Shown here piece after piece: positions 7,082 to 41,021 of a stretch of DNA of 64,000 nucleotides (positions are counted from its first letter, which is position 1; each line of letters begins with the position of its first letter). The DNA is taken from NCBI GenBank assembly GCA_012517355.1, contig JAAYVD010000168.1:62001-126000 (forward strand), given 5' to 3'. The translations under genes were made by a program, and so were the position numbers. Source of the stretch: Candidatus Rifleibacteriota bacterium (GTDB lineage: Bacteria; Muiribacteriota; Ozemobacteria; Ozemobacterales; Ozemobacteraceae). The notes beneath the pieces are model-generated. The model searched no databases, was not told where the DNA came from, and worked only from the letters and a program-made list of their open reading frames with translations.

Positions 7082-7168
7082 CGGCCCCTTTGCAGGGCGC
7101 GAAACTGGCGTTTCGCGCCGCCATCCGTGGCGGCAAAGGGGCACTTCCGACATCGTGTCGGTCGGATC
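7082..7168 (-). repeat. Dispersed palindromic element, copy A (intergenic, minus orientation)
   Basis: Read on the minus strand the element has, in order: GACCGACACGATGTCGG, a CCCCTTTG arm, the hairpin CCGCCACGGATGGCGG, the hairpin GCGAAACGCCAGTTTCGCG, and a GCAAAGGGGCCG arm that pairs with the first CCCCTTTG. It is nearly identical to the copies at 29902 and 32150 and lies between two convergent genes. Confidence 0.8.
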
Positions 7169-17919: not shown

Positions 17920-19938
17920 ATGAACCGACCGACCGTTTGTCGGAAGTGCCCCCTTGCCGACCCCGGACACCGCGCGACACGACCGTTTCGCGCCAGGCCC
18001 GGGGATCCTCTTCCAGTCCCGCTCGCCATCCTGTTCCTGGCCTGGCTGGGAGCCTTCCTGCCCGGGGGGCCGGCCGGCGCCGGCCCGGCCGAAGACCGGC
18101 TGATCGCGGCCTGCCGCGAACTGCTGGCCCCCCTCCTGGAGGACCGCGAACGGTTCACCCTCGACCTCGTCGCCAGTTCCGACCCCGACACCCCCCGGGG
18201 GGACCTCGGATCGGAGACGGCCAGCGGGACCGGTGAGGCCCCTGACCGTCAACCCGCCCGCCAACCCGGCCGGCTCCACCGCCTGACCATCCACCGGTCG
18301 GGGGCGGAAGCGTGGGCCGTGCGGCTCAGCAGCCCTTGGCGCGAAGTCTTCCTCTCCCGGCAGCCGGAGCTCACCTCGCTGGTCCTGCCCAAGGCCGGAG
18401 TGGCCTTCGTCGGCGAGGGGCCGCTGGCCACGGCCACCGACCACCTGGCGGCGACCGGCCTGCTGGGCCGGGTCGTCACGCCCGAAACCAGCCTGGCCGG
18501 ATTCCTGGCCTTCCTGGGCCCCGCCACCCTGGAGACCGGCCTGCGGCAGGTGCTGCTGCCTGGATTGACGCCGCTGCCCGCCGGCGACTGCCCCGTTTCC
18601 GCCCATGGCTGGAGGCTCCCGGGGGGAGGCTCCCTCCTGGTGCCGGCCACCGACACCCCCTGGGTGACCCTGACGCTGGCCTCCTCCACCCGCGGCCTGG
18701 CCGGTCTCACCTCGTTCACGTTGTCGGCACGGCCCCCGGATGCCCCGCCGCCCGCCCCGCCGGTGGTCCCGGTGCGCACCGAGAAGGTGTCCCGGGCCGA
18801 CCTCGAGAGGATGCTGTTCCGGGGCCTGTTCCGGGCTCTTTCCGTCAAGTTCCCGGGGGCGCCCGTGCAGGCCCGTCCCGAGCCCCGGAAGGTTCCCCAT
18901 GGCGACCTGCGGCACCACGACGGGCAGATCCTGGTGCGGTTGGCCGGCAGCCCCGTCCAGATCGGCACCGCCCACGGCCAGCTGCTGGGGCCCGAAATCC
19001 GGCGAACGGTCGATTCGACCCTCCACCTGGTCGGCCTGGTCAGCACCATCGAGCGGGGCAAGTGGTTCCCCGGCGAACTGGAGGAAGCCTGGAGCCGGCT
19101 CAGCCCCCACCTGCCGCCGCACCACCTCGAGGAACTCCAGGCCATCGCCTCCGCCTGCCCCGGCCTTGGCTGGCGGGACCTGCGCCTGTCGAGCATCTTC
19201 CCCGAGTATTTCCACTGCTCCGGGTTCGCCCTGTTCGGGCGGGCCACCGCCGACGGGGCCCTGTACCACGGGCGGGTCCTCGATTACATGACCGAGATCG
19301 GGTTGCAACAGGTGGCCGTGGCCTTCGTGGTCAAGCCGGACGGGGCCCGCGGCTTCCTCAACGCCGGGTATGCCGGCCTGCAGGGTTCGGTCAGCGGCAT
19401 GAACGAGGCCGGGATCTCGCTGGGGGAGATGGGCGGGGGCGGCCGCTACCAGTGGGACGGCGTGCCGATGACCACCCTGATGCGGCGGGCGCTGGAGGAG
19501 TGCGGCACCCTCGAGGAGGTCAGACGCCTGTGGGCCGACAGCCCGCGCACCTGCGAGTATTACTACGTCTTCGCCGACGGGAAGATCCCCGACGCGATGG
19601 CGGTGCGGGCCACGCCGACCGAGATCGAGTTCCTGCGCCCCGGGCACGCCCATCCCCAGCTGGGGGAGGGCATCGCCGACGCGGTGGTGCTGTCGGCCGG
19701 CAGCCGGCTGAAGGAACTGCGCCACCGGGTGACGGCCGGCCACGGCACCTTCACCGCCAGTTCCGCCCTGCGGCTGATGGACCGCCCTGTCGCCATGCGC
19801 AGCAACCTGCACAACTGTCTGTTCGTGCCGGCCCGCGGAGAAGCCTGGATCGCCAACGCCGACGACCGGCGGCCGGCGGCCGAATGCCCCTACGTGCGGT
19901 ACGACTTGCGGGAGCTGCTGCGAGACCTGCCCCGGTAA
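17920..19938 (+). CDS. Secreted C45-type (acyl-CoA:6-APA acyltransferase-like) amidohydrolase
   Basis: 672 residues. The first 30 come from a copy of the dispersed palindromic element. A signal-like hydrophobic segment (about 31-50) follows, so the extension precedes the export signal. After a region without clear homology (about 55-310) comes a C45/AAT domain: GTAHGQLLGPEIR at about 348, the nucleophile-like Cys433 in FHCSGFALFG, and AGYAGLQGSVSGMNEAGISL. Family knowledge: Ntn-type members cleave themselves before the Cys and hydrolyse amide bonds of small molecules. The large N-terminal part is unusual, since the family is often about 350-400 residues. The substrate is unknown. Confidence 0.8.
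   Translation: MNRPTVCRKCPLADPGHRATRPFRARPGDPLPVPLAILFLAWLGAFLPGGPAGAGPAEDRLIAACRELLAPLLEDRERFTLDLVASSDPDTPRGDLGSETASGTGEAPDRQPARQPGRLHRLTIHRSGAEAWAVRLSSPWREVFLSRQPELTSLVLPKAGVAFVGEGPLATATDHLAATGLLGRVVTPETSLAGFLAFLGPATLETGLRQVLLPGLTPLPAGDCPVSAHGWRLPGGGSLLVPATDTPWVTLTLASSTRGLAGLTSFTLSARPPDAPPPAPPVVPVRTEKVSRADLERMLFRGLFRALSVKFPGAPVQARPEPRKVPHGDLRHHDGQILVRLAGSPVQIGTAHGQLLGPEIRRTVDSTLHLVGLVSTIERGKWFPGELEEAWSRLSPHLPPHHLEELQAIASACPGLGWRDLRLSSIFPEYFHCSGFALFGRATADGALYHGRVLDYMTEIGLQQVAVAFVVKPDGARGFLNAGYAGLQGSVSGMNEAGISLGEMGGGGRYQWDGVPMTTLMRRALEECGTLEEVRRLWADSPRTCEYYYVFADGKIPDAMAVRATPTEIEFLRPGHAHPQLGEGIADAVVLSAGSRLKELRHRVTAGHGTFTASSALRLMDRPVAMRSNLHNCLFVPARGEAWIANADDRRPAAECPYVRYDLRELLRDLPR
17926..18005 (+). 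repeat. Dispersed palindromic element, copy F (inside CDS start)
   Basis: Diverged copy: GACCGTTTGTCGGAAG, then CCCCCTTGCC, then CGTTTCGCGCC, ending at CCCGGGGATCC. It begins 6 bases after the ATG and is read through in frame; the frame differs from that used in nadB. Confidence 0.65.
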
Positions 19939-22145: not shown

Positions 22146-22232
22146 CGACCGACCCGCAGCCGGAAGGACCCCCTTGCCGCCGGAGAGGGCACCGCGGAAC
22201 GCGGGTTGCGCGGGCCGCAAGAGGGCCGACCG
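22146..22232 (+). repeat. Dispersed palindromic element, copy H (intergenic)
   Basis: Diverged plus-strand copy: GACCGACCCGCAGCCGGAAG, CCCCCTTGCCGCC, then GCGGAACGCGGGTTGCGCGG and AAGAGGGCCGACCG. It lies between the STAS terminator and the HEAT-repeat gene. Confidence 0.6.
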
Positions 22233-29901: not shown

Positions 29902-29988
29902 GACCGACACGAGGTCGGCCATACCCCTTGGCCGCCACCGATGGCAGCGCGAAGCACGGGTTTCGCGCATCGCAAAGGGGCCGGCCGC
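29902..29988 (+). repeat. Dispersed palindromic element, copy E (at the start of a CDS)
   Basis: Plus-strand copy: GACCGACACGAGGTCGG, ACCCCTTGG, CCGCCACCGATGGCAG, GCGAAGCACGGGTTTCGCG and CAAAGGGGCCG. It overlaps the 5' end of the polysaccharide deacetylase gene and would be read in the same frame as the copy in nadB. Confidence 0.75.
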
Positions 29989-30802: not shown

Positions 30803-32665
30803 ATGGAGGGGACCCCCGCGGCCTTCCTGGTCATCGGGTCTGGGGTGGCGGGGTTGTTCGCGGCCCTGGAGCTGGCCGCCGCCGGTCAACGGGTCCTGGT
30901 CCTGACCCGGCGCGCGATCGACGAGGGGAACTCGGCCTACGCCCAGGGGGGCATCGCCACCGTCTGGGATCCCGCCGATACGGCGGCCGGGCACGCCCGG
31001 GACACGCTGGTGGCCGGGGCGGGTTTGTGCGATCCGGCGGCCGTCGATCTCCTGGTCAGGGAAGGACCCGACGGCGTCCGGGCCATGATCGGGCTGGGCG
31101 CCCGGTTCGACCGCGATGATGACGGGAACCTTCTGCTGACCCGCGAAGGCGGCCACGGCTGCCGGCGGATTCTGCACGCCAACGGGGATGCCACCGGCCG
31201 CGAACTGGAGCGGGCCCTGGTGGCGCGCGTCAGGCAGGAGCCCCGGATCGAGGTGCGGGAAGGCGTCACGGCGTTCGACCTGCTGCGCCACGAGGGCCGG
31301 GTGACCGGCGCCCGGGCCCTGGACGGCGACGGGCGGCCCCTGGCCTTCCCCGCCGACCGCATCCTGTTGGCCAGCGGCGGCCTGGCCGCCCTGTTCCGGG
31401 ACACCACCAATCCCGCCGTGACCGTCGGCGACGGCATCGTCATGGCCTGGGCGGCGGGGGCGGCGGTGGCCGACCTCGAGTTCATCCAGTTCCATCCGAC
31501 GGGGCTGGTGATCCCCGGCCAGCCGCGGCACCTGCTCACCGAGGCCCTGCGCGGGGAAGGGGCCCACCTGCTGAGCCGGTCCGGCGACCGGTTCATGCCC
31601 CGCCACCACCCCCTGGCCGAGCTGGCCCCCCGCGACATCGTGGCCCGCGCCGAGTTGGCCGAGATGCAGCGGACGGGGGACCCCTTCGTGCTCCTCGACG
31701 CCCGGCACCTGGGGGCCTCGTTTCTGGCCGGCCGGTTCCCCGGCCTGGAGGCGATGCTGGGCCGGTTCGGCCTGTCGCTGGCCAGGGATCCCATCCCGGT
31801 GGCCCCGGCCGCGCACTACACGATCGGCGGGGTGCTCACCGACCTGGCGGGCCGGACCACCGTCCCCGGCCTGTATGCCGCGGGAGAGGTCGCCTGCACC
31901 GGCGTGCACGGCGCCAACCGCCTGGCGTCCAACAGCCTGCTCGAATGCCTGGTGTTCGGGCGGCGGGCCGCCCATGCCATGCTGGAGGATTCCATCCGTT
32001 CGCAGAAAGGCACAGCAAGCGCCTCAGCAACCGGATCCCCCCTGCCGGAAACCGGGGCCGGTCTCACCGCCCCACCAGCCGGCGATCCCGACCGACACGA
32101 GGTCGGAAGTGGGCCGCGGGCGCCAGGATGGCGCATCCTCCGCGATCCCGACCGGCACGACGTCGGAAGGGCCCCTTTGCCGCCACGGATGGCGGTGCGA
32201 AACGCCCGTTTCGCGCATCGCCAAGGGGCCGACCGGCAGGAGGTCGCAGATCCTCCCTTGCCACCAGGGATGAAACCCCTGAACCTCAGCATCACTGACG
32301 GCCAGGGGACGGACGGGCCTGGGTTCACCTGGATGCCGGCACGGTTCCCCCCGGGGGATCCCGGGGAGTTTCTCGACCGCCTGCTGGGGGTGTTCCGGAC
32401 CGGACCCGGCCTCGACGAGGCCATGGGCAAACTGGAACCGTCGCTGACGACGGTGACCGTTCCCCTGGGCGAGGCCACCCCCGACCGGGTGGCCCGCCGC
32501 CAGCGGACCGTCGCCGCCGCGCTGCTGGCCCGCTTCGCCCACGCCCGCCGGGAAAGCCGCGGGGCCCATTTCCGGGAAGACTTCCCCGCCCCCGACCCGG
32601 CCTGGCAATTCCGGCAGGTGCTGACCGGCACCACGCTGTCGCGCTGGCCCGGCTCCGTGGAGTGA
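30803..32665 (+). CDS. nadB: L-aspartate oxidase with an in-frame repeat insertion
   Basis: 620 residues. The enzyme oxidises L-aspartate to iminoaspartate, the first step of NAD synthesis. The FAD-binding motif GSGVAGLFAALELA starts at about residue 12; SAYAQGGIA, GGHGCRRILHANGDATGREL, PTGL and the active-site region HYTIGGVLTDLAGRTTVPGLYAAGE are conserved. Relatives have about 500-540 residues; the excess is a segment at about 408-510, between the FAD/capping part and the helical C-terminal domain, much of which is encoded by three partial units of the dispersed palindromic element (427-491). The insertion keeps the frame and sits where a surface loop is expected, so the enzyme may still work. 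nadA and nadC are not in the window. Confidence 0.92.
   Translation: MEGTPAAFLVIGSGVAGLFAALELAAAGQRVLVLTRRAIDEGNSAYAQGGIATVWDPADTAAGHARDTLVAGAGLCDPAAVDLLVREGPDGVRAMIGLGARFDRDDDGNLLLTREGGHGCRRILHANGDATGRELERALVARVRQEPRIEVREGVTAFDLLRHEGRVTGARALDGDGRPLAFPADRILLASGGLAALFRDTTNPAVTVGDGIVMAWAAGAAVADLEFIQFHPTGLVIPGQPRHLLTEALRGEGAHLLSRSGDRFMPRHHPLAELAPRDIVARAELAEMQRTGDPFVLLDARHLGASFLAGRFPGLEAMLGRFGLSLARDPIPVAPAAHYTIGGVLTDLAGRTTVPGLYAAGEVACTGVHGANRLASNSLLECLVFGRRAAHAMLEDSIRSQKGTASASATGSPLPETGAGLTAPPAGDPDRHEVGSGPRAPGWRILRDPDRHDVGRAPLPPRMAVRNARFAHRQGADRQEVADPPLPPGMKPLNLSITDGQGTDGPGFTWMPARFPPGDPGEFLDRLLGVFRTGPGLDEAMGKLEPSLTTVTVPLGEATPDRVARRQRTVAAALLARFAHARRESRGAHFREDFPAPDPAWQFRQVLTGTTLSRWPGSVE
32084..32276 (+). 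repeat. Dispersed palindromic element, copies D1-D3 inside nadB
   Basis: Three tandem plus-strand units. D1 (about 32084-32143) starts GATCCCGACCGACACGAGG and is truncated or diverged. D2 (about 32144-32236) is full: GACCGGCACGACGTCGG, CCCCTTTGCC, CCGCCACGGATGGCGG, GCGAAACGCCCGTTTCGCG and CCAAGGGGCCG. D3 (about 32231-32276) restarts GACCGGCAGGAGGTCGC, then CCCTTGCCACCAGGGATG, and stops. All are read in frame. Confidence 0.85.
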
Positions 32666-38106: not shown

Positions 38107-41021
38107 ATTCCCGACGCCCCCGCGCCGCCGCCGTCGCCCACGAATCCGGCCGGTCACCGGAAACGCCCTCCCCGCAGGGGACCCCGGAAACGGAGCCCTG
38201 GCCAATCCCGGCCACAACGCCTCAGAACCGATTTCCAGGCCCGAAGGCCATTGACGCCCCCTTGGCGGGGGGCGAGACGGACGTTTCGCGGTCCCCTCCG
38301 TGGCGAACAACGGGCCCTTCCGACGGCGGACCCGGGTCCCGCTCACAGATCCAGGTCCGACCCGGAAGGCGACCAACGGAGACCCCGGAAGGAAGGCAGC
38401 CGGGGGAAGCCCGCCGAGGTTTGGCCCTTCCCCTCCTTCTGCTCTTCCTGCTGGCCGGGCTCCTGGCCTCCTGCGGGTGCGGCCCCGCCGGGCCGGAAGA
38501 GGCCGCGGCTCCCGGGCGGCCGGGCGGGGCGGCCGGCGACGGCCGGTGGCCGATCCTGCAGCGGGGCGTGGTGGTGGCCCTGCGCAAGGTCTCGGTCGAT
38601 GCCACCCGCTCCACCCAGGTCCGCAGCCTGCTGCCGGATGGGGCGCTGGTGCAGGCCGGCCAGGTGGTCTGCCAGCTCGTGATGGCCGACCGCGAGGACG
38701 AACTCGCCAAGAAGCGGGCGGATCGGGAGAGCAAAGAGATCCAGTGGCGGCGGGTCCGTGACGGCCAGGGGTTCGAACGCGAGGTGGCCGCGGTGAAACG
38801 CGAACTGGCCGAGGTCGAGCTGGCCAGGACGGCCGAGGAGCTGGGGAAGGCCACCGACCAGCGGGAGTGGCAGCAGATCCTCGAGGAGGAAACCGCGCAA
38901 CGGGTGCGCCGGCAGGAGATCGGCCTGGTGCGCCGCAAGCTGGACGCCCTGCGCGACCTCGAGCGACGCGGGTTCGGCTCGCCGCAGGAACGGCTGGCCG
39001 CCGAGGAGCTGCTCGGGCGGCTGACGCTGGAGGCTTCGCAGGCCGCGCGGCTGGTTCCCTGGCTGGAGAAGACCCCCGACCGGCAGGCAGTCCTGACCGC
39101 GACCCTGGCCTGGGAAGGGGCCTCCCTGGCCCTCGACCTGGCTCGCCTGGTCGAGCGCGGCCAGGCGGGCATCCAGGAGGTGAAACTGGTCGCCGCCCGG
39201 GCGGAGCTGGACGACGCGGCCAGCGCGGTGGCCCGCCTGGAGGCCGAGATCGCCTCCGGCACGCTGGTGGCCAGCATCGCGGGCATGGTGGTGCGCGAGA
39301 ACACCTGGGTGGGGTCGGGCTGGGAAAAGGTCTCGGAAGGCGACCGGGTGTTCACCGGCCGGCCGATCCTGAACATCCTCGACCTCGGCACCCTCGGCGT
39401 GGAGTTCCCGCTCGAGCAGCGGTTTGCGGGCCTGGTGGCCGGCGGCTGCCCGGTCACCTTCCGCCCCGATGCCTTTCCCGGGCGGCTGTGGACCGGGGTG
39501 GTCGCGACCGTGCCCGCCGTGGTCCTGGAGACCCAGTTCCGCGACCCCGAAGGGGAACGGGCCCTGACGGTGCAGGTCGCCTTCCGGGAGGCGACCCCGA
39601 CCCTGCCCCTCGGGTTCACCGGCACCGTCGAGATCTTCCCGCCCGGCACCGACCTGGCCGCGGCGACCGCCGCCCGCCCGGGCTCCCGCCGGACCTCCCT
39701 GGCCGCCGGCCCGCGGCGCCGCGACCTGACCCTGCCCGGCGAGGTCAAGGCCCGCCAGCGCGGGCTCGTCGCCGCCCCCTTCGCCGCCCGGCTGTCCTAC
39801 CTGCAGGAGGACGGGGTCAGCGTGAAGAAGGGCGAGGTGGTGGCCCGGCTCGACACGGCCGAGATCGAGAAGGGCCTGGGGGAACAGCGGATCCAGGTGC
39901 AGAACAAGACCGAGCAGCTTGAGCTGCAGCGCCAGAAGAACCGGGTCGACCTGTCGCGCTGGGAGGGGCTGGTGGCCACGCGGCGCAGCGCCCTGCGGGT
40001 GGCCGAGCTCGAACACGAGATGCTGCTGACCCGCCGCGACGAGGCGGAGATTTTGAACCTGCAGAAGAACCGCGACCTGATCGCCGCCCGCCGCACCCTC
40101 AACGAGGAGGAGACGAAGCACGTCGGCGAGCTGCGAGCCCGCGGCCTGAAGTCCGAACTGGAGCTCGACGAGAGCCGCCTGGCCGGGGCCCGCCTGGAGC
40201 GCGAGCGCGAGATCAACGCCCACAAGCTCGACCTCGAGGTGTCGGGCCCGACCCGCCGCCAGGTCCGGCTGTCGGAACTGGCCCGGCACCAGGCCGCCCT
40301 GGAGCTCCGGCAGGCGGAGCGGGAGGCGGCCCAGGCCTCCTTCACCGCCCGCCTGGACGAGGAGACGCTGGTCGCCGAGATCCGCAAGCTGACCCTGGAG
40401 GTCGCCGAGAAGGAGCAGCGGCTCCGGGAGTCGGCCATTCCCGCCCCCCAGGACGGGGTGGTGATCCTGCCCGAAGTCTGGAAGGAAGGCGAGATGGGAA
40501 AGATGAAGCTGGGCGACCAGGTCAGCCGCCAGATCCCGTTCATGCACATCGCCGACCTCGACCAGCTCGAGATCAACGTGGAGGTGCCCGAGACGGAGGT
40601 CGGCTTCCTGGCCCCCGGCCGGCCCGTCCGCATCACCGCCAAGTCGGCGCCGGGGCGGGTCTTCCCCGGCTGGATCGCCGACGTCGGCACGGTCGCCGAG
40701 AACGACCTGCTGGAGCGGCAGAACGCCCTGGTCGACGTTTTCCTCGCCCTGACCAACCCGGCCTCCGGGGTCACCAAGGTCGACGAGGCCTTCCGGCCCG
40801 GCGCCTCCTGCGAGATCGCCATGCCCCTGTACGATCTGCCCGCCGCGGTGGCCGTCCCCTTCGCCGCCGTCTGGCCGACGCCCGACGGCCCCGCCGTGTT
40901 CGACGGCGACGGCCGGCCGGCCGCCCTGCCCCTCGCCTTCGCCGACGGCCTGGCCGGCTACGTCCTGGCCGACCCGGCCTGGGCGGGCCGCGAGATCCTG
41001 CTGCCGGAGGCCGTCCGATGA
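38103..41021 (+). CDS. Double HlyD-type adaptor (two adaptor modules in one chain)
   Basis: 972 residues. The start is set by overlap with the previous stop. The first 95 residues are polar and include an antisense copy of the dispersed element at about 51-79. A lipoprotein signal then follows (ALPLLLLFLLAGLLASC, Cys at about 121). Module 1 (about 145-515) has a biotinyl-lipoyl half (LPDGALVQAGQVVCQL), a helical hairpin and a closing barrel. Module 2 (about 530-960) repeats this: GLVAAPFAARLSYLQEDGVS, a long coiled coil, AIPAPQDGVVILPEVW and a barrel. A fusion of two adaptors is unusual; separate adaptors normally assemble as six subunits. With the preceding gene the operon carries three adaptor modules. 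Confidence 0.85.
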   Translation: MNSRRPRAAAVAHESGRSPETPSPQGTPETEPWPIPATTPQNRFPGPKAIDAPLAGGETDVSRSPPWRTTGPSDGGPGSRSQIQVRPGRRPTETPEGRQPGEARRGLALPLLLLFLLAGLLASCGCGPAGPEEAAAPGRPGGAAGDGRWPILQRGVVVALRKVSVDATRSTQVRSLLPDGALVQAGQVVCQLVMADREDELAKKRADRESKEIQWRRVRDGQGFEREVAAVKRELAEVELARTAEELGKATDQREWQQILEEETAQRVRRQEIGLVRRKLDALRDLERRGFGSPQERLAAEELLGRLTLEASQAARLVPWLEKTPDRQAVLTATLAWEGASLALDLARLVERGQAGIQEVKLVAARAELDDAASAVARLEAEIASGTLVASIAGMVVRENTWVGSGWEKVSEGDRVFTGRPILNILDLGTLGVEFPLEQRFAGLVAGGCPVTFRPDAFPGRLWTGVVATVPAVVLETQFRDPEGERALTVQVAFREATPTLPLGFTGTVEIFPPGTDLAAATAARPGSRRTSLAAGPRRRDLTLPGEVKARQRGLVAAPFAARLSYLQEDGVSVKKGEVVARLDTAEIEKGLGEQRIQVQNKTEQLELQRQKNRVDLSRWEGLVATRRSALRVAELEHEMLLTRRDEAEILNLQKNRDLIAARRTLNEEETKHVGELRARGLKSELELDESRLAGARLEREREINAHKLDLEVSGPTRRQVRLSELARHQAALELRQAEREAAQASFTARLDEETLVAEIRKLTLEVAEKEQRLRESAIPAPQDGVVILPEVWKEGEMGKMKLGDQVSRQIPFMHIADLDQLEINVEVPETEVGFLAPGRPVRITAKSAPGRVFPGWIADVGTVAENDLLERQNALVDVFLALTNPASGVTKVDEAFRPGASCEIAMPLYDLPAAVAVPFAAVWPTPDGPAVFDGDGRPAALPLAFADGLAGYVLADPAWAGREILLPEAVR
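38253..38339 (-). repeat. Dispersed palindromic element, copy G (inside adaptor gene, antisense)
   Basis: Read on the minus strand: GTCCGCCGTCGGAAGGG, CCCGTTGTTCGCCACGGA, CCGCGAAACGTCCGTCTCG and GCCAAGGGGGCG. It lies in the N-terminal extension, upstream of the lipoprotein signal, and is translated from its opposite strand. Confidence 0.7.

Follow-up and report, generated by a model that had tools for sequence, protein, structure and literature searches.

Can a bacterial housekeeping gene take up several units of a dispersed repeat within its reading frame and still specify an active enzyme? This question is raised by nadB, the gene for L-aspartate oxidase, in a Candidatus Rifleibacteriota bacterium (assembly GCA_012517355.1). 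The gene lies in a stretch of 64,000 nucleotides of contig JAAYVD010000168.1, hereafter called the window. A preliminary description had placed three partial, tandem, in-frame repeat units between the flavin part of the enzyme and its helical C-terminal domain. The features of the locus are the following.

30803..32665, + strand: nadB, L-aspartate oxidase; a stop-free open reading frame of 620 codons that carries the insert.
32018..32086, + strand: linker upstream of the array, from residue 406; unalignable to the sister proteins, with low pLDDT from residue 405.
32087..32146, + strand: A-type unit of 60 nt, residues 429-448; head hairpin CCGACC/GGTCGG and a nested GCGCCA/TGGCGC stem.
32147..32227, + strand: B-type unit of 81 nt, residues 449-475; head hairpin and three-way junction (profile score 79.4 bits, E 2.2e-22).
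32228..32308, + strand: decayed B-type unit (B′) of 81 nt, residues 476-502 (profile score 28.0 bits, E 2.4e-6).
32309..32350, + strand: linker downstream of the array, to residue 516; unalignable to the sister proteins, homology resuming at residues 516-519.

The array is made of three units, A, B and B′, following each other head to tail over 32087-32308, that is 74 codons, all in frame. When located with a profile derived from the copies of the genome, the head of B′ begins exactly 81 nt after that of B. Thus, the number of units, their tandem arrangement and their common frame agree with the preliminary description, but none of them is partial. The span of 32084-32276 given there was inexact, the third unit being of full length though decayed. 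The three units resemble other copies to very different extents. Over 56 nt, the A unit has perfect (100%) matches among the A units of other loci, whereas the best matches elsewhere of B and B′ are 94% and 67% identical, respectively. These values suggest that the units differ in age and, therefore, that insertion or extension at the nadB site has probably taken place on more than one occasion. In addition, the oldest unit would probably have persisted long enough to decay and yet have remained in frame.

Comparison with relatives indicates how much was gained. In two sister genomes of the same genus (G001 and G002), NadB has 525 residues, exactly 95 fewer than here, and the distance between two fixed motifs of the protein is 106 residues instead of 201. 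The estimate of about 100 additional residues, mostly of repeat origin, was therefore right in substance, with 74 of the 95 residues belonging to repeat units. About 21 lie outside any unit and may be older remnants. In a wider comparison, the part of the protein that follows the conserved GANRLASNSLLE measures 239 residues here versus 113-185 in 53 other sequences. Whether orthologues share the segment as a conserved domain was also considered, and the sister proteins are without it. As for the element, a pattern describing the body of the B unit has 311 matches in this genome and none in G001, G002, G004 and G010. Units or heads of the A type are present in G002, with weak occurrences in G004 and G010; a search of G001 for them gave no clear copy. 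As judged from these sequences, the insert in nadB is specific to the lineage and not ancestral.

Such a comparison supposes that the locus is correctly assembled. It might be imagined that two contigs were joined through their shared repeat, or that the number of units is wrong, especially as the assembly is fragmented and three of its contigs have unit matches within their first 200 bases (C29, 24-168; C30, 10-134; C168, 1-165; all in G000). Because contigs start in this manner, the arrays probably do break the assembly, and the copy number would be underestimated. At nadB, however, both halves belong to the same gene and are read in one frame, no two of the three units are identical, and the linkers on their flanks are unique. 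Moreover, G001 and G002 keep the same gene order, with metK and a polysaccharide deacetylase gene upstream of nadB and a HAMP-type gene downstream (the last so called from reading its sequence, without a family search). The conservation of this order disfavors a mis-assembled join, and an artefact is very unlikely.

We now consider the enzyme. The 620-residue protein scores 498.9 bits with TIGR00551, for which the curated cut-off is 452.75. Its FAD_binding_2 domain covers residues 9-379, and Succ_DH_flav_C, the helical C-terminal domain, covers residues 525-599, which places the units between the two domains, as had been proposed. H231, E247, R277/R282, H338 and R373 are invariant across 39 sequences and were aligned to 5kxj; we take them to be the catalytic residues, as mapped to the E. 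coli positions. An AlphaFold2 model calculated with 39 sequences has a pTM of 0.83 and a mean pLDDT of 80, with an intact core, and its closest match in the PDB is E. coli L-aspartate oxidase. The stretch of residues 405-515, flanked by helices 378-401 and 520-528, is unstructured, with a pLDDT under 50 for nearly every residue; a loop at residues 408-510 had been anticipated there. The array is thus predicted to form a disordered linker in a protein that retains both domains and the catalytic residues. The protein resembles E. coli NadB (1chu, 1knp) in predicted fold and in conserved active-site residues, but has in addition roughly 95 disordered residues inserted where its FAD part gives way to the helical domain. 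Since the genome has one NadB only, along with one NadA, the cell probably depends on the enzyme whenever it has no supply of NAD precursors. Insertion of the element in frame at a domain border of a housekeeping enzyme, the central proposal of the preliminary description, is borne out by the syntenic sister orthologues without the insert and by the domains and catalytic residues that are kept.

To what kind of element do the units belong? That it is a dispersed one is confirmed by the distribution of its head. A 20-mer from the head occurs 5 times in the window versus 0.31 expected by chance, and 618 times in the 7.1-Mb genome versus 26 for the reversed pattern. Statistics on B copies were gathered from ten contigs, amounting to 1.264 Mb of the 7.1 Mb of one fragmented assembly. 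They contain 206 copies, which are distributed over 146 places and make up about 1.3% of the DNA, whereas the reversed sequence gave none; scaled to the whole genome, this would correspond to roughly 1,160 B copies. Adjacent copies are arranged head to tail in 56 of 60 cases, with a spacing of most often 81 or 84 nt, and the spacing is 81 nt in all five genic arrays. Lone copies usually start after C or CC and terminate in GGCC. Insertion beside CC, re-creating the same end, would explain the tandem growth.

The predicted fold of the consensus B unit, at -52 kcal/mol, consists of the head hairpin CCGACC/GGTCGG and, after it, a three-way junction that CCCCTTTGC/GCAAAGGGG closes. From the gapped alignment, multi-sequence alifold recovered the head hairpin only, and base pairs were therefore counted on 59 copies of equal length and compared with 300 shuffles. 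The paired fraction is 0.849 versus a shuffle maximum of 0.846, and compensatory cells number 31 versus a shuffle maximum of 29, with 16 of the 31 at one pair. The number of pairs showing a compensatory change (8) is not above that of the shuffles. Covariation in B is modest, with one clearly compensatory pair. So stable a predicted fold, together with an arginine-rich and disordered peptide, could lead one to imagine that the array acts in the nadB mRNA, through translational pausing or processing, or that it marks the protein for cleavage into two chains. The element has no match in Rfam, though, and its copies are found in either strand, between genes as well as within many genes that are unrelated, a distribution that does not suggest a device specific to nadB. 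We consider a role of this kind most unlikely.

Genes are not the usual location of the element. Among the 146 places holding B copies, 101 (69%) are intergenic, 27 fall within predicted genes and 18 at gene ends, whereas intergenic DNA represents 14% of the sampled sequence. Invasion of genes is the less frequent outcome. Gene prediction relied on a home-made codon model, and internal copies with weak support were excluded. About 20 genes besides nadB have internal copies; 17 host genes with a coding signal on both sides of the insertion were kept, and 15 of these, nadB not among them, were scanned against Pfam. They include a DegT/DnrJ aminotransferase, a SpoIIE phosphatase, a GAF-kinase and an ABC1 protein. 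In the aminotransferase, the GAF domain and the SpoIIE phosphatase, the insertion is inside a domain or at its edge. Because several hosts have insertions in or at domains, nadB appears as one case of a general pattern and not as an exception. The in-frame copies in or beside the DegT aminotransferase, GAF-kinase and SpoIIE domains (L180:4944-6227, L212:1112-7849 and L169:12391-15588, respectively) would provide stronger tests of tolerance than nadB.

How is the frame maintained? The length of B is a multiple of three in 13 of 13 full-length genic copies and in 48 of 57 intergenic ones. As the intergenic copies have the same property, it may be a feature of the family unrelated to coding. In addition, 74% of intergenic copies have no stop in any of the six frames, versus 5% of shuffles. 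Nonetheless, genic copies mainly use three frames, reading PDRHEVG..., PTDTRSEV... and, on the other strand, PLAMRETGV.... In well-supported hosts, 19 of 20 insertion places are in one of these three frames, which were chosen after seeing the data. Compared with the other frames, these three contain fewer aromatic residues and score better as coding sequence. Considering that stop codons do not explain the choice of frame, it is likely that the peptide or the use of codons is under selection.

This preference could also be put forward in favor of a segment with a function of its own, that is a linker or domain selected for its peptide and not merely tolerated DNA, since the use of mainly three frames out of six means that some property of the peptide matters. 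Against this idea, the three peptides are unrelated, come from both strands and are distributed across hosts, and the majority of copies are intergenic. In NadB itself, the segment is predicted to be disordered, it is missing in the sisters, and the third unit has decayed freely. A functional linker is therefore very unlikely. Another idea, which we find rather doubtful, is that the family has evolved neutrality toward reading frames, with modules of 60, 81 and 84 nt that are open in nearly all six frames and are joined head to tail in a frame-keeping manner. If this were true, a selfish repeat would enter genes and grow in them at low cost, steadily supplying host proteins with disordered linkers.

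Taken together, the data very probably reflect a lineage-specific, non-autonomous stem-loop element, mostly intergenic, that has been inserted more than once in the flexible interdomain linker of a NadB that would still work. The following steps may be envisaged. The stem-loop element would be moved by an enzyme acting on hairpins. A unit would land in the NadB linker, at the border where the FAD part meets the helical C-terminal domain, and such events would be repeated at this one spot. Thanks to a unit length that is a multiple of three, and to the near absence of stops in any frame, the NadB frame would be kept. Lengthening of the array head to tail, by the exact length of a unit, would keep it further. 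Finally, the host would translate the array as a disordered linker, leaving catalysis intact and the enzyme active.

Several candidates were considered for the mobilizing machinery. A RAYT was rejected, as the sole RAYT gene of the genome (PF01797; G000:C109:4387-4713) is flanked by a TTCCGGGGACATGATAC-type repeat and not by this element, the nearest copy of which is about 6.5 kb away. An IS110-type mobilizer was rejected as well, the genome having no intact transposase of this family but only a 28-bit partial match to PF01548. An autonomous parent sharing the head was also discarded: heads that lack a B body are accounted for by A units, chance or decayed copies. In the flanks of 60 arrays, no k-mer match indicative of a target-site duplication stood clearly above shuffled pairs, and the 2-nt CC found at both ends of the element is indistinguishable from the sequence of the element itself. 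Searches for plasmid, phage or viral-contig relatives found none. As a separate matter, RAYT-like transposases, in a single copy per genome, are found at L244:4060-4854 (G000:C109) and L245:8874-9695 (G002:C123), both flanked by the TTCCGGGGACATGATAC-type repeat, and G001 has no RAYT gene. The flanking repeat has 4 copies in 1.26 Mb. RAYT and the TTCCGGGGACATGATAC-type repeat are a separate REP-like system.

The best-known examples of palindromic repeats that code for protein come from Rickettsia. The Rickettsia palindromic elements are inserted in frame in unrelated genes (Ogata 2000, 2002, as described in the MITE review PMC10969869). Like them, the present repeats are short, palindromic and dispersed, occur both in frame in housekeeping genes and between genes, and apparently leave the host gene in place. 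However, Rickettsia elements are about 150 nt long and form one long palindrome, whereas the units described here are of 60 and 81-84 nt and combine a head hairpin with a three-way junction. Furthermore, the present genome is another one and is GC-rich, its modular arrays run head to tail, its copies number several hundred or more, three frames from both strands are used, and copies are stop-free in nearly all six. The two families would work in a similar way; the likeness is one of behavior and no kinship is claimed. With REP, BIME and REPIN sequences, mobilized by RAYTs (PMC3733652, PMC2817692, PMC3116915), the element has in common high-copy hairpins that are clustered, lie for the most part between genes and often follow stop codons closely. 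In contrast with these, it is a longer composite unit of a hairpin and a three-way junction, its copies are head to tail and not inverted, and the RAYT gene is not flanked by it. Nor does it have the form of a REP, a single palindrome of 20-40 nt with a GTAG or CGTC tag, the tag having been judged by eye. Finally, the element resembles MITEs such as ERIC or BOX (PMC2759123, PMC3049150) in being small and non-autonomous, in lying within and between genes and in being sometimes fused in frame. But its head pairs with itself and not with the tail, no terminal inverted repeats span the unit, and neither a target-site duplication nor a parent insertion sequence was found. The family appears to be a protein-coding palindromic repeat that differs from the Rickettsia ones in unit length, fold, copy number, modular head-to-tail arrays and the use of several frames.

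This lineage offers far more copies than Rickettsia and a clear comparison with the empty site in two sister genomes. A single housekeeping enzyme contains units whose ages visibly differ, and the choice made among the six frames can be measured. The limits on in-frame invasion of genes by selfish repeats, and the question of whether such repeats adapt to coding sequence, thereby become testable.

Other copies of the element are present in the window. Three are intergenic and occur in both orientations (7087-7164, 22146-22221 and 38260-38328). At 17920-18003, a decayed B copy starts two codons past the predicted start of the gene 17920-19938; it may encode the first 28 residues, before a hydrophobic segment, and the start of the G001 orthologue is unrelated. 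Another B copy (29902-29978) lies between metK and the polysaccharide deacetylase gene, overlapping the predicted start of the latter, whose homology to the sisters starts downstream of this copy.
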